Shown in pieces: positions 1 to 12,804 of a stretch of DNA of 64,000 nt (its first letter is position 1; each line of letters opens with the position of its first letter). The DNA lies in contig NZ_AP018920.1 of NCBI RefSeq assembly GCF_003945385.1, positions 1,612,001 to 1,676,000 on the forward strand. Reading direction: 5' to 3'. The stretch comes from Pseudonocardia autotrophica. Its GTDB lineage: Bacteria; Actinomycetota; Actinomycetes; Mycobacteriales; Pseudonocardiaceae. The notes beneath the pieces were generated by a model that saw only the letters and a list, made by a program, of their open reading frames with translations, was not told where the DNA came from and did no database searches. Position numbers and translations under genes: made by a program.

Positions 1-81
1 GGAAAAGCGCACGCGCTCTTGGAGCAGCTGTCCGAGAGCGCGGACGACCAGGAACCACCGGCGCCGCGGAAGCGGCGTTGA
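1..81 (+). CDS. IS3-family OrfA, C-terminal fragment cut by the window edge
   Basis: The last 26 codons of the IS3 OrfA protein (GKAHALLEQLSES... PRKRR) are seen, ending in TGA at 79-81. The same residues end the complete OrfA of copy B at 57879-58355. The stop overlaps the TTG start of orfB at 78, the usual orfA/orfB arrangement of IS3 elements, which often make an OrfAB fusion by frameshifting. Confidence 0.85.
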   Translation, partial: GKAHALLEQLSESADDQEPPAPRKRR

Positions 82-1088
82 ACGGCGCGTTCACCGAGTT
101 GCGCGCCGCTGAGGTGTCGATCAAGGCGGCGTGCGCGTTGACCGGTCGGTCGCGGGCCACGCACTACCGCCGCGCCGACCCGGCGGGGGTGACGCTCGGG
201 CCGCTGCACGGCCCGCACCGTGCGCGCCGGCTCCCGCCCTCGACGATCACCGACGACGAGCGTGCCGCCGTGCTCGCGCTGCTGAACTCCGAGGACTACC
301 GGGATCTGGCCATTCCGCAGGTGTGGGCCCGGGAGCTCGACGAGGGCCGGTGGTGGTGCTCGCAGTCGAGCATGTACCGGATCGCCCGCGCAGCGGGTCA
401 GAACCGGGAACGGCGCGCCCAGGCCACGCATCCGCCGCGGGTGCGCCCGGAGCTGGTCGCTCATGGCCCGAGCGAGGTGTGGTCGTGGGACATCACCGCG
501 CTGAAGGGCCCGCGGAAGGGCGAGTGGTACAAGCTGTATGTGGTGCTCGACATCTTCTCCCGCTACGTAGTCGGATGGCTCGCCGCGAACGCTGAGGATG
601 CCGTCGTGGCGAAGGATTTCCTCGCCGACGCAGTCGCCCGCAACCACGTCATCCCGCAGACGATTCATGCCGACCGGGGCGGGTCGATGACCTCGAAACC
701 GGTATCGGAGCTGATGGTCGATCTCGGTATCTGCCGGTCACATTCCCGGCCGCAGTGCTCGAATGACAACCCGTTCTCCGAGGCGCAGTTCAAGACGCTG
801 AAGTACGTGCCGGACTTCCCGGACCGGTTCGGCTCGCTCGCTGATGCCCGCGCGTTCTGCGAGCGGTTCTTCGAGCACTACAACCACGAGCATCGGCACT
901 CCGGCATCGGCATGCACACCCCGGCGTCGATCCACTTCGACACCGCGACCGAGGTCCGGGCTCAGCGTCAGACCGTCCTCGACCGCGCACACGCCCAGTA
1001 TCCCGAGCGATTCAGTCGCCGGCCCAGCCCGCCGCGCCTGCCCGAGCAGGCGTGGATCAATCAACCCGTCCTACAGCCAACTCAGTAA
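78..1088 (+). CDS. IS3-family transposase OrfB (rve integrase core)
   Basis: 336-residue DDE transposase. An N-terminal helical region precedes an integrase core with the first catalytic Asp in WSWDITALKG, the second in HADRGG and the Glu in NPFSEAQFKTLK, followed by the HRHSGIGMHTPASIH stretch typical of IS3 transposases. The protein looks identical to the product of copy B (56872-57882), so both insertions are recent. The assumed TTG start overlaps the orfA stop; an OrfAB fusion by frameshifting is equally possible. Full length and probably active. Confidence 0.9.
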   Translation: MNGAFTELRAAEVSIKAACALTGRSRATHYRRADPAGVTLGPLHGPHRARRLPPSTITDDERAAVLALLNSEDYRDLAIPQVWARELDEGRWWCSQSSMYRIARAAGQNRERRAQATHPPRVRPELVAHGPSEVWSWDITALKGPRKGEWYKLYVVLDIFSRYVVGWLAANAEDAVVAKDFLADAVARNHVIPQTIHADRGGSMTSKPVSELMVDLGICRSHSRPQCSNDNPFSEAQFKTLKYVPDFPDRFGSLADARAFCERFFEHYNHEHRHSGIGMHTPASIHFDTATEVRAQRQTVLDRAHAQYPERFSRRPSPPRLPEQAWINQPVLQPTQ

Positions 1089-1121
1089 GATCAACTGTCT
1101 CAGTTGACTTGACAGCTACCG

Positions 1122-2864
<1,743 letters not shown>

Positions 2865-2976
2865 CCAGCACGAACCTCACCGCCTGGACACACGCCCGTC
2901 CGGGCGGCCTTCGGCGTTCTCGCAGGTCAACCCCCAGATTCCGTGTCCAGCACCGACATCAGCTGCGGAACCCGGG

Positions 2977-3549
2977 GTGGCCGTTGCGATGGTTTGCCTC
3001 GGTCAGCTTCTTGGTGAACTTGTGCGGACGAACGGCCTTCCAGCCGCTGCCATCCGGCGCGGGGATAACGGTGTGGTCGCTCCGCTCGGTCGCGGGGAGG
3101 AGCTGGACCTGCGTGCCGTCGCGGTACGTCACAGTTACGGCCATCCGCCCGACCTGGATGTCGTTGATCTGCGAGGCCGGGAGCCTCGCCCTGAGCGCGT
3201 CGGCGAAGGCGGTGAGGACGGCGTCAGGGGGCCCAGAGGTGGGGCCGTTGAGGAAGACGAGGCTGTCGACGTCCGACAGGCCGTCGACGTAGGTGTGCTT
3301 GGCGATACTGCCGCCGAACAGCAGGTGGTCCACGTCGTGTCCCAGCTCGCGCAGGACTTCCTCAAGCTGATCGAGCTTGTTCGAGACCGCCTGGGTGTCG
3401 CGGTCGTTGAAGCCGACCAACTGCTCAGCGAGGAACTGGTTGATATCGGCGATGAGCTGCTGCTCCGCCAGTTCTCGCCGTACCTCGGCACGAGTTCGCG
3501 CGAGCTCCTCGTCGCTGCCGCTGTAGGTGCCGCCGCCACTACCGCCCAT
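2977..3549 (-). pseudogene. CD-NTase (CBASS cyclic-nucleotide synthase), 3' truncated by IS
   Basis: The first ~190 residues of a nucleotidyltransferase related to CBASS CD-NTases, enzymes that make cyclic oligonucleotide alarms on phage infection. Seen: a helical N-terminus (residues 12-65), the signature FGGSIAKHTYVDGLSDVDSL with GGS and the D-x-D metal pair, and a strand ending QVQLLPA, where many relatives carry a third acidic residue. The N-terminus MGGSGGGTYSGS is glycine-rich. Coding sequence stops at the IS1634-like right end (2976); the frame then runs five codons into the IS to a stop at 2959. CD-NTases usually exceed 300 residues, so the C-terminal half is missing. Start ATG overlaps the TGT-like stop by one base. 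Confidence 0.8.
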
Positions 3550-4583
3550 CAGTCGATGCCCTTCTCGATCCTTGCCAGCATGGTGGCATGGGTTCGGGCC
3601 AGCACCGCCCCGTGCTCGGCGAACTCATCGAAACCACGGCCGCCGGTCGCCGCGTACCGCTCCATCTGCCGTTTCAGCGCCCGCAGGTGCCCGAGATTCA
3701 CGATGGGCCGCTTGGCGTCCCGTAGTTGCTGTCGGTCATCGTCCTCGCCACGAAGCAGGGCGCCCGCGTCGGGATGGACGGCCAGGCCGCCGATGTACGC
3801 GTAGCGCATCCAACTCAGTCCGTCGAAGATCTCAGCGCCCGCCGAGAAGTACAGCGGTGTGAGGAGCGGATCGAGCGCTCCGAACAGGTGGATCGGTGCG
3901 TCGACGCCGGCCTCGTCGAGAACGATTCGCAGACGCGCCAGGGTGCACAGGCGGGCCAGGTACGAGTCGCCCAGCTCCTTCTCGGTGAACCCGACCACGT
4001 CGAACGCAACCAGATCAGGAGCGTAGGGCGCGAGCTCGCGCGGCGAGTGCCACCGCTCGGTCGGCTTCAGCAAGATGTCGCTCGCCACATGGGTTCGCGT
4101 GGCAAAGAACGCCTGAGCTCTGCGGATCTGCTCGCCGTAAGTGTCGCCCGCGAGGTCGGGACCGTCGTAGGACACGACGAGCGTGGGCCGCTGTGGCGGC
4201 AGCCGATCCACAATGCGGGCGAACGCCGCCGCGTCGTAGAGGCGACGGGCTGGATCGTCTCGTTGGATGTGGCCGGATTCCCACGCCAGGCCGGTCTCGT
4301 AGCCTCCGCTGTCGAGGACTAGCAGCCGCGGCCGGTCGAACACCGTGCCGGAGGCGGTGTCGTCGAGCAGCCGGGTGACGTCTTTGAGCGTGCGGTGCTC
4401 CACGTCGTACGCCGAGACGAGCAGGGCCTCGTCGAGGCCGTCGAGAGCGTACTGCAGGTAGAGGCTGCTCTCTGCGATCCCAGCCGGGTCCAGGGGAAAG
4501 CCCCGGCTGCTCACGCTAGGGATCAGCAGGGGAGTGGTCAGCGTCGCTCCGGCCAACCGCAATGGACGGCTACGCGCGCGCAT
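3549..4583 (-). CDS. TGT-like transglycosylase of type IV CBASS (Cap10-like)
   Basis: About 344 residues with a TIM-barrel tRNA-guanine transglycosylase fold. Supporting stretches are RLLVLDSGGYETG near the N-terminus, FDVVGFTEKELGDSY mid-protein and APIHLFGALDPLLTPLYFSAGAEIFDGLSW near the C-terminus, where TGTs carry the strand order of the catalytic barrel. No PUA RNA-binding domain is visible. TGT enzymes exchange a guanine for a 7-deazaguanine; TGT-like genes next to QueC-like genes and a CD-NTase define type IV CBASS. The ATG at 4583 is preferred to 4634 because it reduces overlap with queC to 14 bp. Part of the five-gene minus-strand operon. A DpdA-like DNA-modifying role is the main alternative. 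Confidence 0.78.
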   Translation of the reverse strand: MRARSRPLRLAGATLTTPLLIPSVSSRGFPLDPAGIAESSLYLQYALDGLDEALLVSAYDVEHRTLKDVTRLLDDTASGTVFDRPRLLVLDSGGYETGLAWESGHIQRDDPARRLYDAAAFARIVDRLPPQRPTLVVSYDGPDLAGDTYGEQIRRAQAFFATRTHVASDILLKPTERWHSPRELAPYAPDLVAFDVVGFTEKELGDSYLARLCTLARLRIVLDEAGVDAPIHLFGALDPLLTPLYFSAGAEIFDGLSWMRYAYIGGLAVHPDAGALLRGEDDDRQQLRDAKRPIVNLGHLRALKRQMERYAATGGRGFDEFAEHGAVLARTHATMLARIEKGID

Positions 4584-5190
4584 CGAGGATCGCCCGGTCG
4601 AGGCAGGAGCGACACCGGCCGCAGGCCGTGTCACCAGCTTCGCAGCTGTGCGTCAGCCCCAGAGGGATCGAGCCGTCCACAGCGAGTGCTAGCACCTCGG
4701 GCTTGGTCAGGTGCAGCAGCGGCGCGAGGAGTCGGACTGCGCCGCCGTGCTGCGCGTCGAGCAGCGACTGCCAGGCGTCCCGGTGCTCCGGTGAGCAGTC
4801 CGCGTAGCCGGTGCCCCCGTGCACGCCGAGCGCGACGTCCCGCCCGGGCGCCGCGGCGCGCGCCACCGCGATCAGCAAGTCGTTACGCCCGATGATCTCG
4901 CCCGAAGACGGGACGCTCAGTCCGCCGATGGTCACGCACTCGCGCGACAGGCCGAAGGCCGCAGCGATGGCCGTGCTGGCGTGCGCCTCGGCCTTCGCCG
5001 CAGGCTGGCCGTAGTCCACGAACAGTCCAGTCGGCGGAGTGCCGGCCTCTATCAGGAACCGCGCAACGAGCGCGCTGTCGACGCCACCGCTCAGGAGCAG
5101 ACACGGGTGACGCACGCGGGACACCCCTGGACCCTGCCAGATCATTCGCTTGAGTTCCCGAGACTCGCCGCGCTGATCGCGACGAGTCAC
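4570..5190 (-). CDS. queC: QueC-like 7-cyano-7-deazaguanine synthase (Cap9-like)
   Basis: 206 residues. LLSGGVDSALV (about 32-42) is the PP-loop ATP-pyrophosphatase motif; the C-terminal HSCEAGDTACGRCRSC holds the zinc-binding cysteines of QueC. QueC converts 7-carboxy-7-deazaguanine (CDG) to preQ0 with ATP and ammonia; in type IV CBASS a QueC-like protein acts with a TGT-like partner. It is slightly shorter than housekeeping QueC (about 220-230). The start ATG overlaps the queE stop (ATGA). With queD, queE and the TGT-like gene it could supply a deazaguanine base made on the spot. Confidence 0.85.
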   Translation of the reverse strand: MTRRDQRGESRELKRMIWQGPGVSRVRHPCLLLSGGVDSALVARFLIEAGTPPTGLFVDYGQPAAKAEAHASTAIAAAFGLSRECVTIGGLSVPSSGEIIGRNDLLIAVARAAAPGRDVALGVHGGTGYADCSPEHRDAWQSLLDAQHGGAVRLLAPLLHLTKPEVLALAVDGSIPLGLTHSCEAGDTACGRCRSCLDRAILDARA

Positions 5191-5912
5191 CTGGCTCGCT
5201 CGTTACCCCACAGCAGAACGTGCATCCTCCCGCTCAGGGACCACCCGCGGCGGTTGACGCCTGGTGCGAGCGCGGCCAGGCCGTCGATGACAGCCTCCCG
5301 GGTGGTCCCCTCGGGCATTACCCAGATCCTCTGGGGAGCGAGCGCGAGCCGCGCCGCGATCTCGTCGACCTCGGCGAGGTCGGACGGCGATGACACGACG
5401 AACTTGAACTCGGTGCTGCGCAGGGCGGCAAACTCGTGCAGCACCCCCCACCGCAGCCGCGCCCGTTCCGATTGTCTGCTGTTGCTGAGCTTCGGTGATA
5501 CGACGAACCGGTCAACGAGCGTGGCCAGACCGCCGGGAGCGACCGAGCCGCTGGTCTCGAACTCGACCCGGCGGCCGGCCGCGGAAACAGCGCGAACGAA
5601 CGAGAGAAGCGTAGTCCTCTGCAGCAGAGGCTCCCCGCCGGTGACCACGACGAGTGGTGCCGCTCGCGACAGCACGTCCCTGACGAGGTCGACCACGGCA
5701 GTGGTCCGGAGCTCGGCGGCGAGATCGTGGGAGGAGCGGTCCCAGGTGTAAGACGTGTCGCACCACGCGCAGGCGAGATTGCACATCCCGAGTCGCAGGA
5801 ACACTGCCGCGCGCCCCGCGCTCGGCCCTTCACCCTGAAGAGTGGGCCCAAACACCTCGCTGACGAGCAGCTCACTTGCGCCAGGCCGAAGCACCCCGCG
5901 GTACGCCGTCAT
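5187..5912 (-). CDS. queE: QueE, 7-carboxy-7-deazaguanine synthase (radical SAM)
   Basis: 241 residues from the ATG at 5912, which overlaps the queD stop. SEVFGPTLQGEG at the N-terminus, the radical-SAM cluster CNLACAWC (C-x3-C-x2-C, the QueE spacing), and VVTGGEPLLQ identify it. QueE rearranges 6-carboxy-tetrahydropterin to CDG. An upstream ATG at 5954 would overlap queD by 46 bp and adds no conserved sequence. It lies between queD and queC in pathway order, so the operon encodes the route from dihydroneopterin triphosphate to preQ0, lacking only GTP cyclohydrolase I. Confidence 0.9.
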   Translation of the reverse strand: MTAYRGVLRPGASELLVSEVFGPTLQGEGPSAGRAAVFLRLGMCNLACAWCDTSYTWDRSSHDLAAELRTTAVVDLVRDVLSRAAPLVVVTGGEPLLQRTTLLSFVRAVSAAGRRVEFETSGSVAPGGLATLVDRFVVSPKLSNSRQSERARLRWGVLHEFAALRSTEFKFVVSSPSDLAEVDEIAARLALAPQRIWVMPEGTTREAVIDGLAALAPGVNRRGWSLSGRMHVLLWGNERAR

Positions 5913-6271
5913 GAGGGCCGACGCAGAACGACCGATCCGCGTTCCGTCTCCCATAGGCGCAGCATGGTCCAGGGGACGGCCGCTTCACTCAGCCAGTCGC
6001 CGATCATGCACGCGGTCAGCTCAGCGGTCGGATTGTTGAGCAGGTCGTTCAGGTAAGAGTGGTCTAGGCGGGCCAGCACGTGCTGCTCGACTTGCGCGTC
6101 GAGTTCGGCGAAGTCCGCGACCACCCCTCGCTCGTCGACGGGCCCCGTGGCCTCGACCTCCATCACGTAGCGATGACCGTGGAGTGCACGGCACTTGCCC
6201 GGATGCCAGCTCAACCGGTGAGCCGCCTCGAATGAGTACCGGCGAAGGATACTCACCTGGTAGCCAGCCAC
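5909..6271 (-). CDS. queD: QueD, 6-carboxy-5,6,7,8-tetrahydropterin synthase
   Basis: 120 residues, PTPS/QueD fold. Zinc-ligand histidines are seen in FEAAHRLSW and ALHGHRY; the catalytic Cys is in HPGKCRALHGH. DHSYLND and a Glu near the C-terminus (LWETERG) are typical. It makes 6-carboxytetrahydropterin from dihydroneopterin triphosphate. GTG start; first gene of the queDEC-TGT-CD-NTase operon. Its promoter must lie in the 129 bp before the IS1634-like element at 6401, or be supplied by that element. Confidence 0.9.
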   Translation of the reverse strand: MAGYQVSILRRYSFEAAHRLSWHPGKCRALHGHRYVMEVEATGPVDERGVVADFAELDAQVEQHVLARLDHSYLNDLLNNPTAELTACMIGDWLSEAAVPWTMLRLWETERGSVVLRRPS

Positions 6272-6558
6272 TCGGGCATTCTATCCGTCGGACGTTCCTG
6301 GCCGTGCAGCCCGAAGCGGGGAGCAAGCCCTTCTCGCTGAGCCGAGCGCCGCATCGGACCCGGTCGTCGCGGAGCACCTGGATCCGTTGCCGGCGCCCAA
6401 CCCGCGTTCCGCAGCTGATGGGCGGATCTGGACACACGCCGCGGTATTCTCCCAGGTCAGCGAGCGGGAGCAGGTCCGGAAGCGGCGAAAATACTGGACA
6501 CACGTTCGATCGGTGTTCGAACTGTTGAGCTGCTGGAACTCATGTAACGTCTGGACAC

Positions 6559-8337
<1,779 letters not shown>

Positions 8338-8475
8338 CCAGCACGAACCTCACCGCCTGGACACACGCCCGTCCGGGCGGCCTTCGGCGTTCTCGCAGGT
8401 CAACCCCCAGATTCCGTGTCCAGCACCGACATCAGCTGCGGAACCCGGGCCCAACCCGCGGATCGTGCGGCGTGA

Positions 8476-9926: not shown

Positions 9927-10985
9927 CTACGTGCGTAGCGTAGTGGATGGGGATTCTCCCCACTGCCTTCGATACGCTACTGCGAAGCTTCCAGGGTGAT
10001 TGAATCCCCACCGATGTGCAACCGCAGCTACGGTTACTCCTTCGGAAGGCATGGCGTCGACCAGCTCGTCTCGAACGCGTTCGAGACGGCGCCGCTGAAC
10101 GTAGGCCATAGGGCTGACTCCCAGTTCGTCGTGAAACACTTGTTGGATTGAGCGTTTGCTGAGATGTACGCTTCGGGCGATGTCAGCAACGGTCAGCGCA
10201 TCGCCTAGATGAGTCTCGATAAAATTCAACGCCTTGCGCACGACACGACCCTCACTGTGGATGGACGCGTCACTGAAGTGGTGGCGGAAGTTCGACGGCT
10301 GAAGGTGGAGCAGACTGCTCATTAGCAGCTCCTCAATTGCCCCTATTCCTTCTCCGCGTTGAATTAGTGACCCCGGATAATAGACCTCTGTGTGCATGAG
10401 CTGAACTGCCGAACTCCAGCGCATTGCCGCCTCTGAGGTGAGGTCGAACGCGGGCTCGAAGATTATCTTCGACGGTAGGGTGCGGCCGAGCAGTCGTGCA
10501 AGCAGGGCGTTCAATGCTGACTCTTCGATTCGCACGATCAAGATCGGGGTGTCGACCCCTAGATGTAGCGTCAGGGGCAAGCCGGGACTCGTGACAAGTG
10601 CGCAAACCGTGTTCGCTTCGAGCTTCTGTCCCGCATGTTGATACGTGACCTGCCCATTCGTCGGTAGGCATACCGTGTAGTAGTTGCCAAGGACCGGGAT
10701 GTCGAGGGTTCCGGTGACGGACAGGTCAAGGTGCAGCAGGCTCACGTCACGAAGTCGGACGCCGTGCAGGCTTGCAGCGAAGACAGCCGGGGGCGCAGCA
10801 TCGACCACCAGATGGCCAGGCGCGAGGGCTGCGCCCAGGAGTGCAGCGGTTTCGCGAACGCTCTCGGAGTAGAAGATCTCGTGCGCGGCCAGCGCGGGTG
10901 GCACGCCCCGCGACCGAACCTTGCGCCGCACAGGGCCCTGTGTGCGGCGGATGTCAATGAACCGCAGCCGCTCAAGCCTGGACAT
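9927..10985 (-). CDS. AraC-family transcriptional regulator
   Basis: About 352 residues. An N-terminal AraC-binding-like domain (about 30-210) precedes an AraC HTH pair (about 245-350): ALNFIETHLGDALTVADIARSVHLSKRSIQQVFHDELGVSPMAYV and a second helix-turn-helix with HRWGFNHPGSFAVAYRRQWGESP. The domain pattern (AraC_binding_2 plus HTH_18) is common in actinobacteria. Divergent from the hydrogenase operon with about 170 bp between, so it may control it; the ligand is unknown. ATG at 10985 is chosen over the GTG just before it. Confidence 0.85.
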   Translation of the reverse strand: MSRLERLRFIDIRRTQGPVRRKVRSRGVPPALAAHEIFYSESVRETAALLGAALAPGHLVVDAAPPAVFAASLHGVRLRDVSLLHLDLSVTGTLDIPVLGNYYTVCLPTNGQVTYQHAGQKLEANTVCALVTSPGLPLTLHLGVDTPILIVRIEESALNALLARLLGRTLPSKIIFEPAFDLTSEAAMRWSSAVQLMHTEVYYPGSLIQRGEGIGAIEELLMSSLLHLQPSNFRHHFSDASIHSEGRVVRKALNFIETHLGDALTVADIARSVHLSKRSIQQVFHDELGVSPMAYVQRRRLERVRDELVDAMPSEGVTVAAVAHRWGFNHPGSFAVAYRRQWGESPSTTLRT

Positions 10986-11154
10986 CACTACCCCCGCGAC
11001 AGTCGCGCCACAAGCCTTGACCGCGAGAAGCCGTTTCTGTTCGAACGTGCAAGCTGTGGCGCGGGTATCAGCGCTCCTGCGAGTGCATCTCTGCGCGATC
11101 GTGACAGTCTTCGCGCGATCTCGCTAGGCTAACTGGGCGATGGGAGGTAGCTTT

Positions 11155-11727
11155 GTGCCTCACCTCACACCGGAACCCAACGAAGGGGGCCCCTTGGTCG
11201 TCAACGGCCAGCTCGCCGCCCACTCCCCGGCGGACGAGCTACTCGAGCGGCTCGACGACCCCACGGTCGCGGCGTCGCTGTCAGTCGTGCTCGAACACGC
11301 AGACCTGCTTGCTGTGCTGGTCGTCGCACTCGACGGGTTCCTGCGGCGTGGCGACACCATCATGGAGGGCGTGGCCGACGGCGTGCGCGACCTGCGCCAG
11401 GCGTCTGGCCCCGGCGTGTCGTCGCTGTCAGGCATCGATGTGCAGGGACTGATGTCCAGCGCGACAACCTTGTCGGGGGGTGTGGTAGCTGCCACTCCTA
11501 CCCTTCACGCGCTCCTTACTTCGACTCTGGTGACTGATCCCCGCGCAGCGAAGGCGATCGCGCTGCTCGGCGATGCGGTCGTCGAGGGCGCGGATGCCGC
11601 CTCGGCAATTAAGGCCGGTCCGACGGGAGTCTTCGGCCTGCTCCGAGTGCTCAAGGACGAGAACGTGTCCCGAGGTCTCAATCTCCTGATCGAGATCGTC
11701 CGGTCGCTCGGTCGAAGGCTCGCCTGA
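11155..11727 (+). CDS. DUF1641-like hydrogenase-associated protein
   Basis: About 190 residues, mostly helical. A central repetitive region (LERLDDPTVAASLSVVLEHADLLAVLVVALDGFLRRGDTIMEGV) resembles the DUF1641 family, which occurs beside hydrogenases and formate dehydrogenases; biochemical role unknown. GTG at 11155 is preferred because GGGAGG at 11142-11147 sits 7 bp before it; an upstream ATG at 11140 would include that Shine-Dalgarno sequence. First gene of the hydrogenase operon, 105 bp before hhyS. Confidence 0.6.
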   Translation: MPHLTPEPNEGGPLVVNGQLAAHSPADELLERLDDPTVAASLSVVLEHADLLAVLVVALDGFLRRGDTIMEGVADGVRDLRQASGPGVSSLSGIDVQGLMSSATTLSGGVVAATPTLHALLTSTLVTDPRAAKAIALLGDAVVEGADAASAIKAGPTGVFGLLRVLKDENVSRGLNLLIEIVRSLGRRLA

Positions 11728-11832
11728 GCCCGATCTCGCATTGGATCCACCCGAATCTCGTCAGCGACACGGGTTGCTGACGCCACCTGCGTCCGTGCAG
11801 TTGATGCGGACATGGTTCTGAGAGGATTTCGC

Positions 11833-12804
11833 ATGGCGTCCGTGCTGTGGTTGCAAGGAGGGGCATGCAGTGGGAACACCATGTCGTTCCTGAACGCCGA
11901 GGAGCCGAATGTCGTCGATCTGATCGTCGACTTTGGACTGGACCTGATCTGGCACCCGTCCTTGGGGCTCGAACTCGGCAAAAATGCGCAGAAGCTGTTC
12001 TGGGACTGCGCCAACGGCGACCGACCGCTCGACATCTTCGTGTTCGAGGGCACCGTCATCGAGGCGCCCGACGGCAGTGGTCGCATGGATATGTTTGCCG
12101 ACCGCCCGATGAAGGACTGGGTGATCGACCTCGCCAACTCCGCCCAGATCGTCGTCGCGATCGGTGACTGCGCTTGTTGGGGTGGCATCCCGGCGATGGA
12201 ACCCAACCCGTCGGGTTCGACCGGTCTGCAGTTCCACAAGCGCGCCAAGGGCGGGTTCCTGGGCCCGGACTTCACGTCGAAGATGGGCCTGCCGGTGATC
12301 AACATACCGGGCTGCCCAGCACACCCCGACTGGATCACCCAAATCCTCGTGGCGTTGGCAACCGGCCGCGCCGGTGACATCTCGCTCGACGACCTGCACC
12401 GGCCCGAGACGTTCTTCAAGTCGTTCACCCAGACCGGCTGTACCCGCGTGCAATTCTTCGAGTACAAGCAGTCCACCTACTCGTTCGGCGAGGGCACGCG
12501 CACCGGCTGCCTGTTCTACGAACTCGGATGCCGGGGCCCGATGACCCATTCCCCGTGCAACCGGATCCTGTGGAACCGGGTGTCGTCCAAGACGCGCGCC
12601 GGCATGCCGTGCCTGGGCTGTACAGAACCCGAGTTCCCGCACTTCGACCTTGCTCCCGGCACGGTCTTCAAGACCCAGAAGGTCAGCGGAACCATCCCGA
12701 AGGAGGTCCCCGAAGGCAGTGACCACCTCACCTACATGGCCCATGCTGCGGCCGCCCGCATCGCGGCGCCGCAATGGTCCAAGGAGGACATGTTCGTCGT
12801 CTGA
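11833..12804 (+). CDS. hhyS: Group 1h [NiFe]-hydrogenase small subunit HhyS
   Basis: 323 residues. Carries the iron-sulfur relay from the active site. Seen: ACSGN at residues 11-15 in place of the usual CxxC, IGDCACWGG, IPGCPAHPDW, then the distal-cluster cysteines TRTGCLFYELGCRGPMTHS and AGMPCLGCTEP. The Asn where other groups have Cys agrees with the 3-Cys/1-Asp proximal cluster described for actinobacterial-type enzymes. There is no Tat signal, as in group 1h. ATG at 11833 follows AGAGGA; an upstream ATG at 11812 adds no conserved residues. Group 1h enzymes oxidise H2 at atmospheric levels in Streptomyces and Mycobacterium. Confidence 0.93.
   Translation: MASVLWLQGGACSGNTMSFLNAEEPNVVDLIVDFGLDLIWHPSLGLELGKNAQKLFWDCANGDRPLDIFVFEGTVIEAPDGSGRMDMFADRPMKDWVIDLANSAQIVVAIGDCACWGGIPAMEPNPSGSTGLQFHKRAKGGFLGPDFTSKMGLPVINIPGCPAHPDWITQILVALATGRAGDISLDDLHRPETFFKSFTQTGCTRVQFFEYKQSTYSFGEGTRTGCLFYELGCRGPMTHSPCNRILWNRVSSKTRAGMPCLGCTEPEFPHFDLAPGTVFKTQKVSGTIPKEVPEGSDHLTYMAHAAAARIAAPQWSKEDMFVV

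Follow-up and report, generated by a model that had tools for sequence, protein, structure and literature searches.

A single overlapping operon on the minus strand, at positions 2977-6271 of the window (the whole 64,000-nt stretch of Pseudonocardia autotrophica DNA that was analysed), is likely to be a type IV CBASS operon of actinobacteria equipped to supply its own substrate, the cdnD of which was later split in this genome. All five genes (queD, queE, a QueC-like gene, a TGT-like gene and a CD-NTase gene) were located and ordered by their ORFs, in the arrangement given by a preliminary description of this DNA (Table 1). Gene content and order, recurrence in other genomes, co-divergence, host background and an insertion were observed in this analysis and are presented below.

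Gene content of the locus

Table 1. Features of the operon and of the adjoining insertion elements. Positions are those of the window unless preceded by L037.
Feature	Position	Strand	Matches and remarks
queD (6-carboxytetrahydropterin synthase-like), first gene of the operon	5909..6271	-	PTPS 2.4e-26; motifs CRALHGH, LDHSYLN
queE (CDG synthase-like radical SAM), 241 aa	5187..5912	-	Radical_SAM 1.5e-8; TIGR03365 3.9e-32; CX3CX2C motif CNLACAWC
cap9, QueC-like ligase (NDG conjugation enzyme)	4570..5190	-	PF06508 9.8e-21; PADLOC QueC 7e-46; PDB Cap9 9NTO 2.9e-29
cap10, TGT-like, 344 aa from ATG 4583	3549..4583	-	PADLOC TGT 3.2e-75; PDB Cap10 9NTN 1.3e-38
cdnD, N-terminal ~190 codons of CD-NTase, start MGGSGGG	2977..3549	-	SMODS 2e-8; PADLOC Cyclase PDLC00790 4.8e-51, model 1-191 of 310
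cdnD remainder (model 192-300, PADLOC Cyclase)	L037:15970-16323, ~0.7-1.0 kb left of position 1		Own-genome search, separate match
2TM effector	L037:15390-15965, left of position 1		PADLOC PDLC00681 5.4e-30
OGG	L037:14493-15362, left of position 1		PADLOC PDLC00910 8.1e-58
IS1634-family element in cdnD, right part	1121..2976	+	Left end L037:16324, ~0.7 kb left of position 1
IS3-family element, right part, nested in the IS1634-family copy of cdnD	1..1120	+	NF033516 3e-49
Second IS1634-family copy, ~130 bp upstream of queD	6402..8449	+	Transposase NF033559 5.9e-114; own 6-bp duplication CCCAAC

Sequence comparison places the locus in type IV CBASS: it encodes Cap9, Cap10 and a CD-NTase that begins with MGGS; PADLOC and PDB matches to all three proteins, including a check of the CD-NTase against the SMODS and PADLOC Cyclase models, agreed with the class proposed earlier. 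The features of such systems that were present comprised the CD-NTase, Cap9, Cap10, OGG, a 2TM effector gene (for which a killing role is predicted) and the MGGS N-terminus, while an intact CD-NTase gene was missing. The MGGSGGG start is an MGGS-type tail, the NDG site of type IV CBASS, and an MGG start was found in 26/30 CD-NTase ORFs examined, that of the window included. Cap9 carried the motifs SGGVDS, GRN and YADC together with a four-Cys motif. The queE start (ATG 5912) overlaps the queD stop, with a longer ORF possible from 5954, and the resulting product has the length of P0121; that of cap10 has the length of P0001, its ORF being open to 4634. The effector and OGG genes had been expected either left of position 1 or lost with the IS insertions, and the L037 matches placed both, together, about 1.0-2.5 kb left of position 1, so that the first option stood and the second fell.

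DNA modification with 7-deazaguanines also uses TGT-like and QueC-like genes together with queDE, and dpd systems share queD, queE, queC and a TGT relative with the operon. That the locus is a Dpd-like system, in which QueD, QueE and QueC make preQ0 and the TGT-like enzyme inserts it into DNA, is nevertheless highly improbable, even though the same types of part serve 7-deazaguanine DNA modification in a phage example (PMC10002423, available text): the QueC-like protein matched Cap9, the TGT-like protein was by the matches seen Cap10 (PADLOC TGT, PDB 9NTN) and not DpdA-type, and the CD-NTase, 2TM effector and OGG come next in the operon. No dpdB or dpdC was encountered among the neighbouring genes that were scanned. 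The closest resemblance is to the type IV CBASS of Wassarman et al. 2025 (PMC11996544; structures 9NTN and 9NTO), which, in the text available, has an MGGS-tailed CdnD, Cap9, Cap10, OGG and a membrane effector, with the same order cap9-cap10-cdnD; what differs here is that queD and queE stand in front, within the operon.

QueD, QueE and Cap9 relative to canonical families

QueD scored 83.7 bits against TIGR03367 and QueE 111.7 bits against TIGR03365, below the NCBIfam curated cut-offs of 89.25 and 206.1, respectively, and the two proteins are therefore regarded as divergent by sequence, yet they kept the motifs checked (CRALHGH and LDHSYLN; CNLACAWC), which we take to be the catalytic motifs of QueD and QueE. 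For Cap10, NCBIfam gave only TgtA (6.7e-4), far under its cut-off. In the canonical queuosine/preQ0 operon queC-queD-queE, QueD and QueE make 7-carboxy-7-deazaguanine (CDG), as is predicted for the pair in this operon; the QueC encoded here, in contrast, is Cap9, and neither a canonical QueC nor a tRNA-TGT was found in the host. A canonical QueC was ruled out, the protein reaching 63 bits against TIGR00364 where 150.3 are needed. The preliminary description had spoken of a complete preQ0 module, which did not hold: besides this score, Cap9 uses CDG to modify the N-terminus of the CD-NTase in the available text of two published studies (PMC13279940; PMC11996544), so that a role of Cap9 as preQ0 synthase was rejected and preQ0 is probably never made by the operon.

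Recurrence of the operon in other genomes

The same seven-gene order was found in an actinomycete MAG (L003), in Modestobacter (L004) and in Phycicoccus flavus (L005), which upheld the earlier suggestion that queDE form part of the system. The queD and queE products were 57-60% and 52-59% identical, respectively, to those of the three relatives; the effectors and OGGs of L004 and L005 were named by PADLOC, and the L004 CD-NTase homologue matched the CdnD of 9NTN/9NTO (9NTN 3.9e-70). Relatives of Cap10 and QueE fell on contigs of the same length and source in 15 pairs (mean 0.37 at shifted lengths), drawn from the best 120 of 256 and the best 120 of 2494 matches with the window's own P0001 and P0121 excluded; co-occurrence is here read from equal length and source, one length being printed per cluster. 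One pair (Modestobacter) was L004 itself, and Cap10 and this QueE thus seem to be encoded together on 14 further contigs.

In a tree of 36 rows, the Cap10-linked QueEs and the QueE of L076 were split from 17 other actinomycete QueEs with support 100/100, a grouping that is partly by selection for the QueEs linked through pairing, since these were found as matches to the window's QueE; L003-L005, found via Cap10, are free of this. Left out of the tree were L009, L044, and L086 and L091 with short QueE frames, the last two from 20 fetched regions; these regions cover the 23 genomes that gave a strong match to QueE, less G000 (the genome of the window), G689 and G487, the last being taken as the same MAG as L003 (31,023-nt contig in both). 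L009 was rejected as a carrier of the same cassette, its QueE falling outside the group. Distances among Cap10 and QueE proteins were correlated (18 pairs, Mantel r 0.81, 0/9999 permutations).

In 23/26 judgeable type IV CBASS loci among genome contigs, queDE were not directly upstream; four of 30 loci were excluded, L028 and L032 because cap10 has no cap9 next to it, L016 and L029 because <1.2 kb is available upstream. The locus of G173 also ends at cap9, and the single QueD and QueE of that genome sit on a different contig together with a canonical QueC. Among 13 genomes of the order of G436, a QueE of this group was found at E 1e-20 in G436 only.

Defence islands gather unrelated genes, and queDE adjoin a different QueC-like gene in L076; queDE might accordingly have come to lie there by chance or as part of an island, as a cassette for preQ0 or a natural product that ended up at a type IV CBASS and plays no part in its action. 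Such a coincidence is improbable: the window and L003-L005 share one gene order, both genes seem to be present on 14 further contigs, QueE and Cap10 co-diverge, and neither a canonical QueC nor a tRNA-TGT that could use the product was found in these hosts. The recurrent queDE-Cap9 linkage conflicts with a 2026 survey, the available part of which reports queD/queE linkage in none of the major QueC clusters except the canonical one.

Host background and distribution

In the genome of the window and those of L003-L005, no QueE match other than that of the operon, no tRNA-TGT (0/4) and no QueC-family match above 24 bits besides Cap9 were found, the absences in the L003-L005 hosts resting on assemblies, one of them a MAG. 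FolE was present in 4/4 of these genomes, and the only match for GTP cyclohydrolase I in the window's genome lay outside the operon, as expected if the host supplies this enzyme. A second PTPS gene was found outside the operon in the genomes of the window and of L003. Hosts with queDE-adjacent loci lacked tRNA-TGT in 4/5 cases, other hosts in 2/28 (Fisher p = 0.0017; 2/24 and p = 0.003 without the four unjudgeable loci; p = 0.0007 without L009, otherwise counted as queDE-adjacent), a contrast confounded by phylogeny (p = 0.14 within 8 Actinomycetota loci). The assemblies of L006 (Cellulomonas MAG) and L022 (actinomycete MAG) contained a type IV CBASS with no PF01242 and no credible QueE match, so that either the system can do without CDG made locally or these MAGs are incomplete.

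Among 390 genomes of the family, Cap10 was found in the window's genome only, and the operon probably arrived there laterally. Searches for Cap10 gave 51 pattern matches and 0 relatives on viral contigs, no match in phages, and one Pseudanabaena record (35% identical) among plasmids; there was thus no sign of a phage-borne operon in these collections.

Proposed function

The chemistry of Cap9, Cap10 and NDG, and the fact that defence requires it, have already been published by others, as far as the available texts go. In the scheme proposed here, host FolE would convert GTP to dihydroneopterin triphosphate, from which QueD and QueE of the operon would make CDG; Cap9 would join CDG onto the N-terminal glycine of CdnD (the MGGS tail), Cap10 would bind the modified tail, and the armed CdnD would upon infection make a cyclic nucleotide acting on the 2TM membrane effector. 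As the substrate of Cap9 is the product of QueD and QueE, the operon would itself encode what feeds its protein modification, and the presence of queDE would be explained by the lack, in such hosts, of a queuosine pathway from which CDG could be borrowed. These particular QueD and QueE are predicted to be active and to supply Cap9.

If so, the genetics alone points to CDG, the QueE product, as the metabolite required by type IV CBASS, and indicates how such a system can persist where the host does not synthesize queuosine. A self-contained operon should also make protein deazaguanylation reconstitutable in strains without que genes and the dependence on CDG directly testable.

Insertion elements and state of this copy

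The identity of the CD-NTase gene was correctly recognized at the outset, that it is cut was not: the window holds only the first ~190 residues, cut by the IS1634-family element ending at 2976. A 6-bp target duplication (GTGGCC) flanks this element at L037:16318-16323 and window 2977-2982, and its right part aligned with the second copy over 1856 positions with 0 mismatches and one 12-base gap (99.35%). A composite transposon formed by both copies was rejected, because each has its own 6-bp duplication and cdnD resumes beyond the left copy. In this genome the operon would have arrived laterally and cdnD been split later; as a consequence of the split, this copy is probably inactive, with queD, queE, cap9 and cap10 remaining as open frames. 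We consider it unlikely that the split enzyme still works, the 196-aa N-terminal piece being modified by Cap9 and keeping some function alone or with a separate C-terminal piece: the N-terminal piece retains the MGGS tail and the GGS...DVD motif and queD through cap10 are open frames, but it has no model positions from 192 on and two ISs lie between the pieces.

The QueE lineage beyond CBASS

To our knowledge, Qat systems include neither a CD-NTase nor a TGT. Like the Cap9 system, qatABCD has an enzyme of the QueC family that works on a flexible glycine N-terminus (QatC and the MGTS tail of QatB; PMC13279940, available text), QatC being larger than Cap9. The QueE lineage of the operon also occurs next to another QueC family, 'Cluster 4', which is linked to PfkB and which the available text of PMC13329287 files under purine salvage; in this family, a small MSGSG/MGGS-tailed protein is encoded in front of PfkB.

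The QueE lineage offers a handle for other defence systems that use deazaguanine. It is conceivable, though doubtful, that queDE are an immune CDG-supply cassette beyond CBASS, with the PfkB-linked QueC family as a third, CD-NTase-free protein-deazaguanylation system whose acceptor is the small tailed protein. Were this true, protein deazaguanylation would be a general immune chemistry, with QueDE supplying the nucleobase locally where hosts have no queuosine synthesis.

Membership of the SIR2 gene in a QueC-queDE-SIR2 system in L076 is not claimed: SIR2 relatives and the QueE list (78 x 119) had 0 same-length contigs in common, and an MGxS start occurred in 0/79 SIR2 relatives, the GTA codon in L076 being no start. 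At E 0.01 the small MGGS protein of L028 matched nothing in Pfam or among plasmids, and its best PDB match (E 0.69) was not credible; relatives of the L028 QueC were found on viral contigs (9, at 26-32%).

Identity and organization of the operon

Five minus-strand genes, namely queD and queE, then QueC-like and TGT-like genes and finally the N-terminal portion of a CD-NTase gene, had overlapping stops and starts throughout; the single overlapping operon of the preliminary description was confirmed, but only this portion of its CD-NTase lies within the window. Family assignments were concordant across Pfam, PADLOC and NCBIfam. At an E-value cut-off of 0.001, the sole solved-structure matches were Cap10 (9NTN, 1.3e-38) for the TGT-like protein, Cap9 (9NTO, 2.9e-29) for the QueC-like protein and CdnD (9NTN/9NTO, 3.9e-70) for the full-length CD-NTase of the Modestobacter locus L004. 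The N-terminus of the window's CD-NTase reads MGGSGGG, MGGS being, according to PMC13279940, the CD-NTase motif whose glycine accepts deazaguanine. The operon is, on sequence grounds, a type IV CBASS; these matches and the MGGS start bear out the earlier assignment. Motifs were kept in its Cap9 (SGGVDS, GRN, YADC and four cysteines), QueD (CRALHGH, LDHSYLN) and QueE (CNLACAWC), with QueD and QueE scoring under the NCBIfam curated cut-offs. In 29 of the 30 CD-NTases examined (window plus L003-L035), a QxLPA-type motif, not found in that of L015, placed Q at the position of the third catalytic acid of CD-NTases, as it also does in the solved CdnD 9NTN.

The effector and OGG gene, which had been expected either left of position 1 or lost with the insertions, were both found to the left, in L037 (the adjoining stretch of the same genome; window position = L037 position minus 17000), where the C-terminal part of the CD-NTase was followed in operon direction by the 2TM effector and then OGG (table). 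The IS1634-family element splitting cdnD, with a nested IS3-family element, was flanked at both ends by a 6-bp duplication, most simply read as one insertion into a previously intact cdnD; we infer that this CBASS copy is now inactive. The two IS1634-family copies aligned over 1856 positions with no mismatch and one 12-base gap. About 5 kb past the OGG gene lay a TOTE conflict system primase-helicase, with a recombinase gene and IS genes between, and the surroundings look like a defence island.

Coordinates of features in the window, in L037 and at related loci
Feature	Location	Strand	Remarks
queD to first part of CD-NTase	window 6271 to 2977	minus	
CD-NTase C-terminal part	L037:15970-16323	minus	model positions 192-300
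2TM effector	L037:15390-15965	minus	PDLC00681, 5.4e-30
OGG gene	L037:14493-15362	minus	PDLC00910, 8.1e-58
IS1634-family element between CD-NTase parts	L037:16324 to window 2976		GTGGCC duplication
Second IS1634-family copy	window 6402-8449		~130 bp upstream of queD; own duplication CCCAAC
Recombinase gene	L037:10794-12200		
TOTE primase-helicase	L037:6782-9325		AEP-TOTE, 3.4e-73
Frame resembling NiFe-hydrogenase small subunit	window 11812-12804		judged by eye
Second PTPS/QueD-family gene, window's genome	L002:1501-1881		G000:C1:827472-827852
queE, queD and PfkB kinase, Polyangiaceae locus	L009:9601-10610 and 10985-12433		downstream of type IV CBASS
PfkB kinase, actinomycete MAG	L022:8993-10372		after type IV CBASS
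queE, queD and CHTG-type QueC, actinomycete locus	L076:6289-9907		
PfkB-QueC locus, Bosea MAG	L028:2311-6655		
VUT family genes, plasmid loci	L109:6344-6883; L113:5308-5883		near-copy loci

Recurrence and co-divergence of queDE with type IV CBASS

A Cap10 alignment run once against genome_contigs (84,980 species) recovered 30 loci, in 28 of which cap9 adjoined cap10. Among the 26 of these with 1.2 kb or more of sequence ahead of cap9, queD-queE lay directly upstream in three (L003, actinomycete MAG; L004; and L005, Phycicoccus flavus), and each of the three has, further along, cdnD plus 2TM-effector and OGG relatives (PADLOC naming of these relatives covered the L004 and L005 proteins). Of the five Actinomycetota loci in the scan, L006 (Cellulomonas MAG) and L022 were without queDE. 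In L009 queE and queD were downstream, and PfkB kinases came after the system in both L009 and L022. Pairing of 119 Cap10 with 119 QueE relatives (from the best 120 of 256 and 2494, respectively, own proteins omitted) gave 15 pairs, one being L004 itself, that appear to share a contig (equal length and data source), versus a chance level of 0.37 on average and 3 at most (lengths shifted). A literature search, covering sources in part, returned no text describing queDE in type IV CBASS; an earlier mention is possible, for example in Wassarman et al. 2025, Millman et al. 2020 or supplements.

Cap10 and QueE distance matrices were correlated over 18 pairs (r = 0.81, a value reached in 0 of 9999 permutations). 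Careful tree-building set the 18 Cap10-linked QueEs and that of L076 apart from 17 other actinomycete QueEs (support 100/100). A quick tree of 141 rows placed 19 of 20 linked rows within one 77-row branch (support 96), for a minority of whose rows the neighbourhood is known and which contained none of 18 other loci; the sole linked row outside was that of L009, whose QueE stands outside the actinomycete group.

Proposed role of QueD and QueE, and host background

In published work (PMC11996544, PMC13279940), Cap9 attaches 7-carboxy-7-deazaguanine (CDG) to the glycine at the CdnD N-terminus, Cap10 binds the modified N-terminus, and defence depends on this modification. QueE makes CDG from the product of QueD (PMC13329287). 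Since Cap9 uses CDG and CDG comes from QueD and QueE, the operon's pair would provide precisely the compound on which Cap9 acts. No preQ0 step, as in the module originally proposed, is needed, the published Cap9 substrate being CDG.

Whole-genome searches covered 33 Cap10 hosts, 12 of them also searched for FolE. The genomes of the window, L003, L004 and L005 had no QueE match beyond the operon's own and no tRNA-TGT; all four had FolE, and QueC-family matches besides Cap9 were limited to 22-24 bits in frames of 654-897 aa. A second PTPS/QueD-family gene was seen in the window's genome. The tRNA-TGT was missing in four of five hosts with operon-side queDE versus 2 of 28 others (Fisher p = 0.0017), or 2 of 24 with four unjudgeable loci left out (p = 0.003). 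Phylogeny could nevertheless be the cause of this contrast, because among the eight loci from Actinomycetota (window, L003-L006, L022, G065, G173) the figures were 4/4 versus 1/4 (p = 0.14). Neither a PF01242 match nor a credible QueE match came from the L006 and L022 host assemblies (actinobacterial MAGs), which argues against a strict need for queDE unless these MAGs are incomplete. Within the window's family, Cap10 was found in 1 of 390 genomes, the window's own, which points to lateral gain of the operon.

A CHTG-type QueC module

At L076, a queD and a queE of the CBASS-linked group accompanied a different kind of QueC-like gene (CHTG...CGSCGGCIK), truncated by the end of the contig; a SIR2_2 protein adjoined these genes, a link with no sign of recurrence. 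The nearest relative of this QueC-like gene among fetched loci (41%) was the QueC of L028, grouped there with genes for PfkB, OGG, a Cap10-like protein and a 109-aa protein with an MGGS start; no CD-NTase was seen at this locus. At E 1e-15, 24 plasmid records carried relatives of this QueC kind. In 10 of the 11 plasmid loci opened (L105-L113, L115; L109 and L113, and L105 and L110, being near-copies), a protein of 108-135 aa starting MSGS, MSGG or MSSG preceded PfkB, while in L114 the preceding ORF had none of these starts. The nine annotated plasmid regions included an 8-oxoguanine glycosylase gene in four, a DNA adenine methylase in three and, in two, a VUT family gene labelled as queuosine salvage. 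In PMC13329287, this QueC type is Cluster 4 (CH(x)5CxxCxGCxK), with a PfkB neighbour in ~89%, filed under purine salvage. Judged from gene content, the small protein, PfkB and CHTG-type QueC are a candidate third protein-deazaguanylation system, differing from type IV CBASS in having no CD-NTase and a QueC-like gene of the CHTG type. VUT family genes lay near PfkB-QueC at L109 and L113, raising the question of deazaguanine import instead of synthesis.
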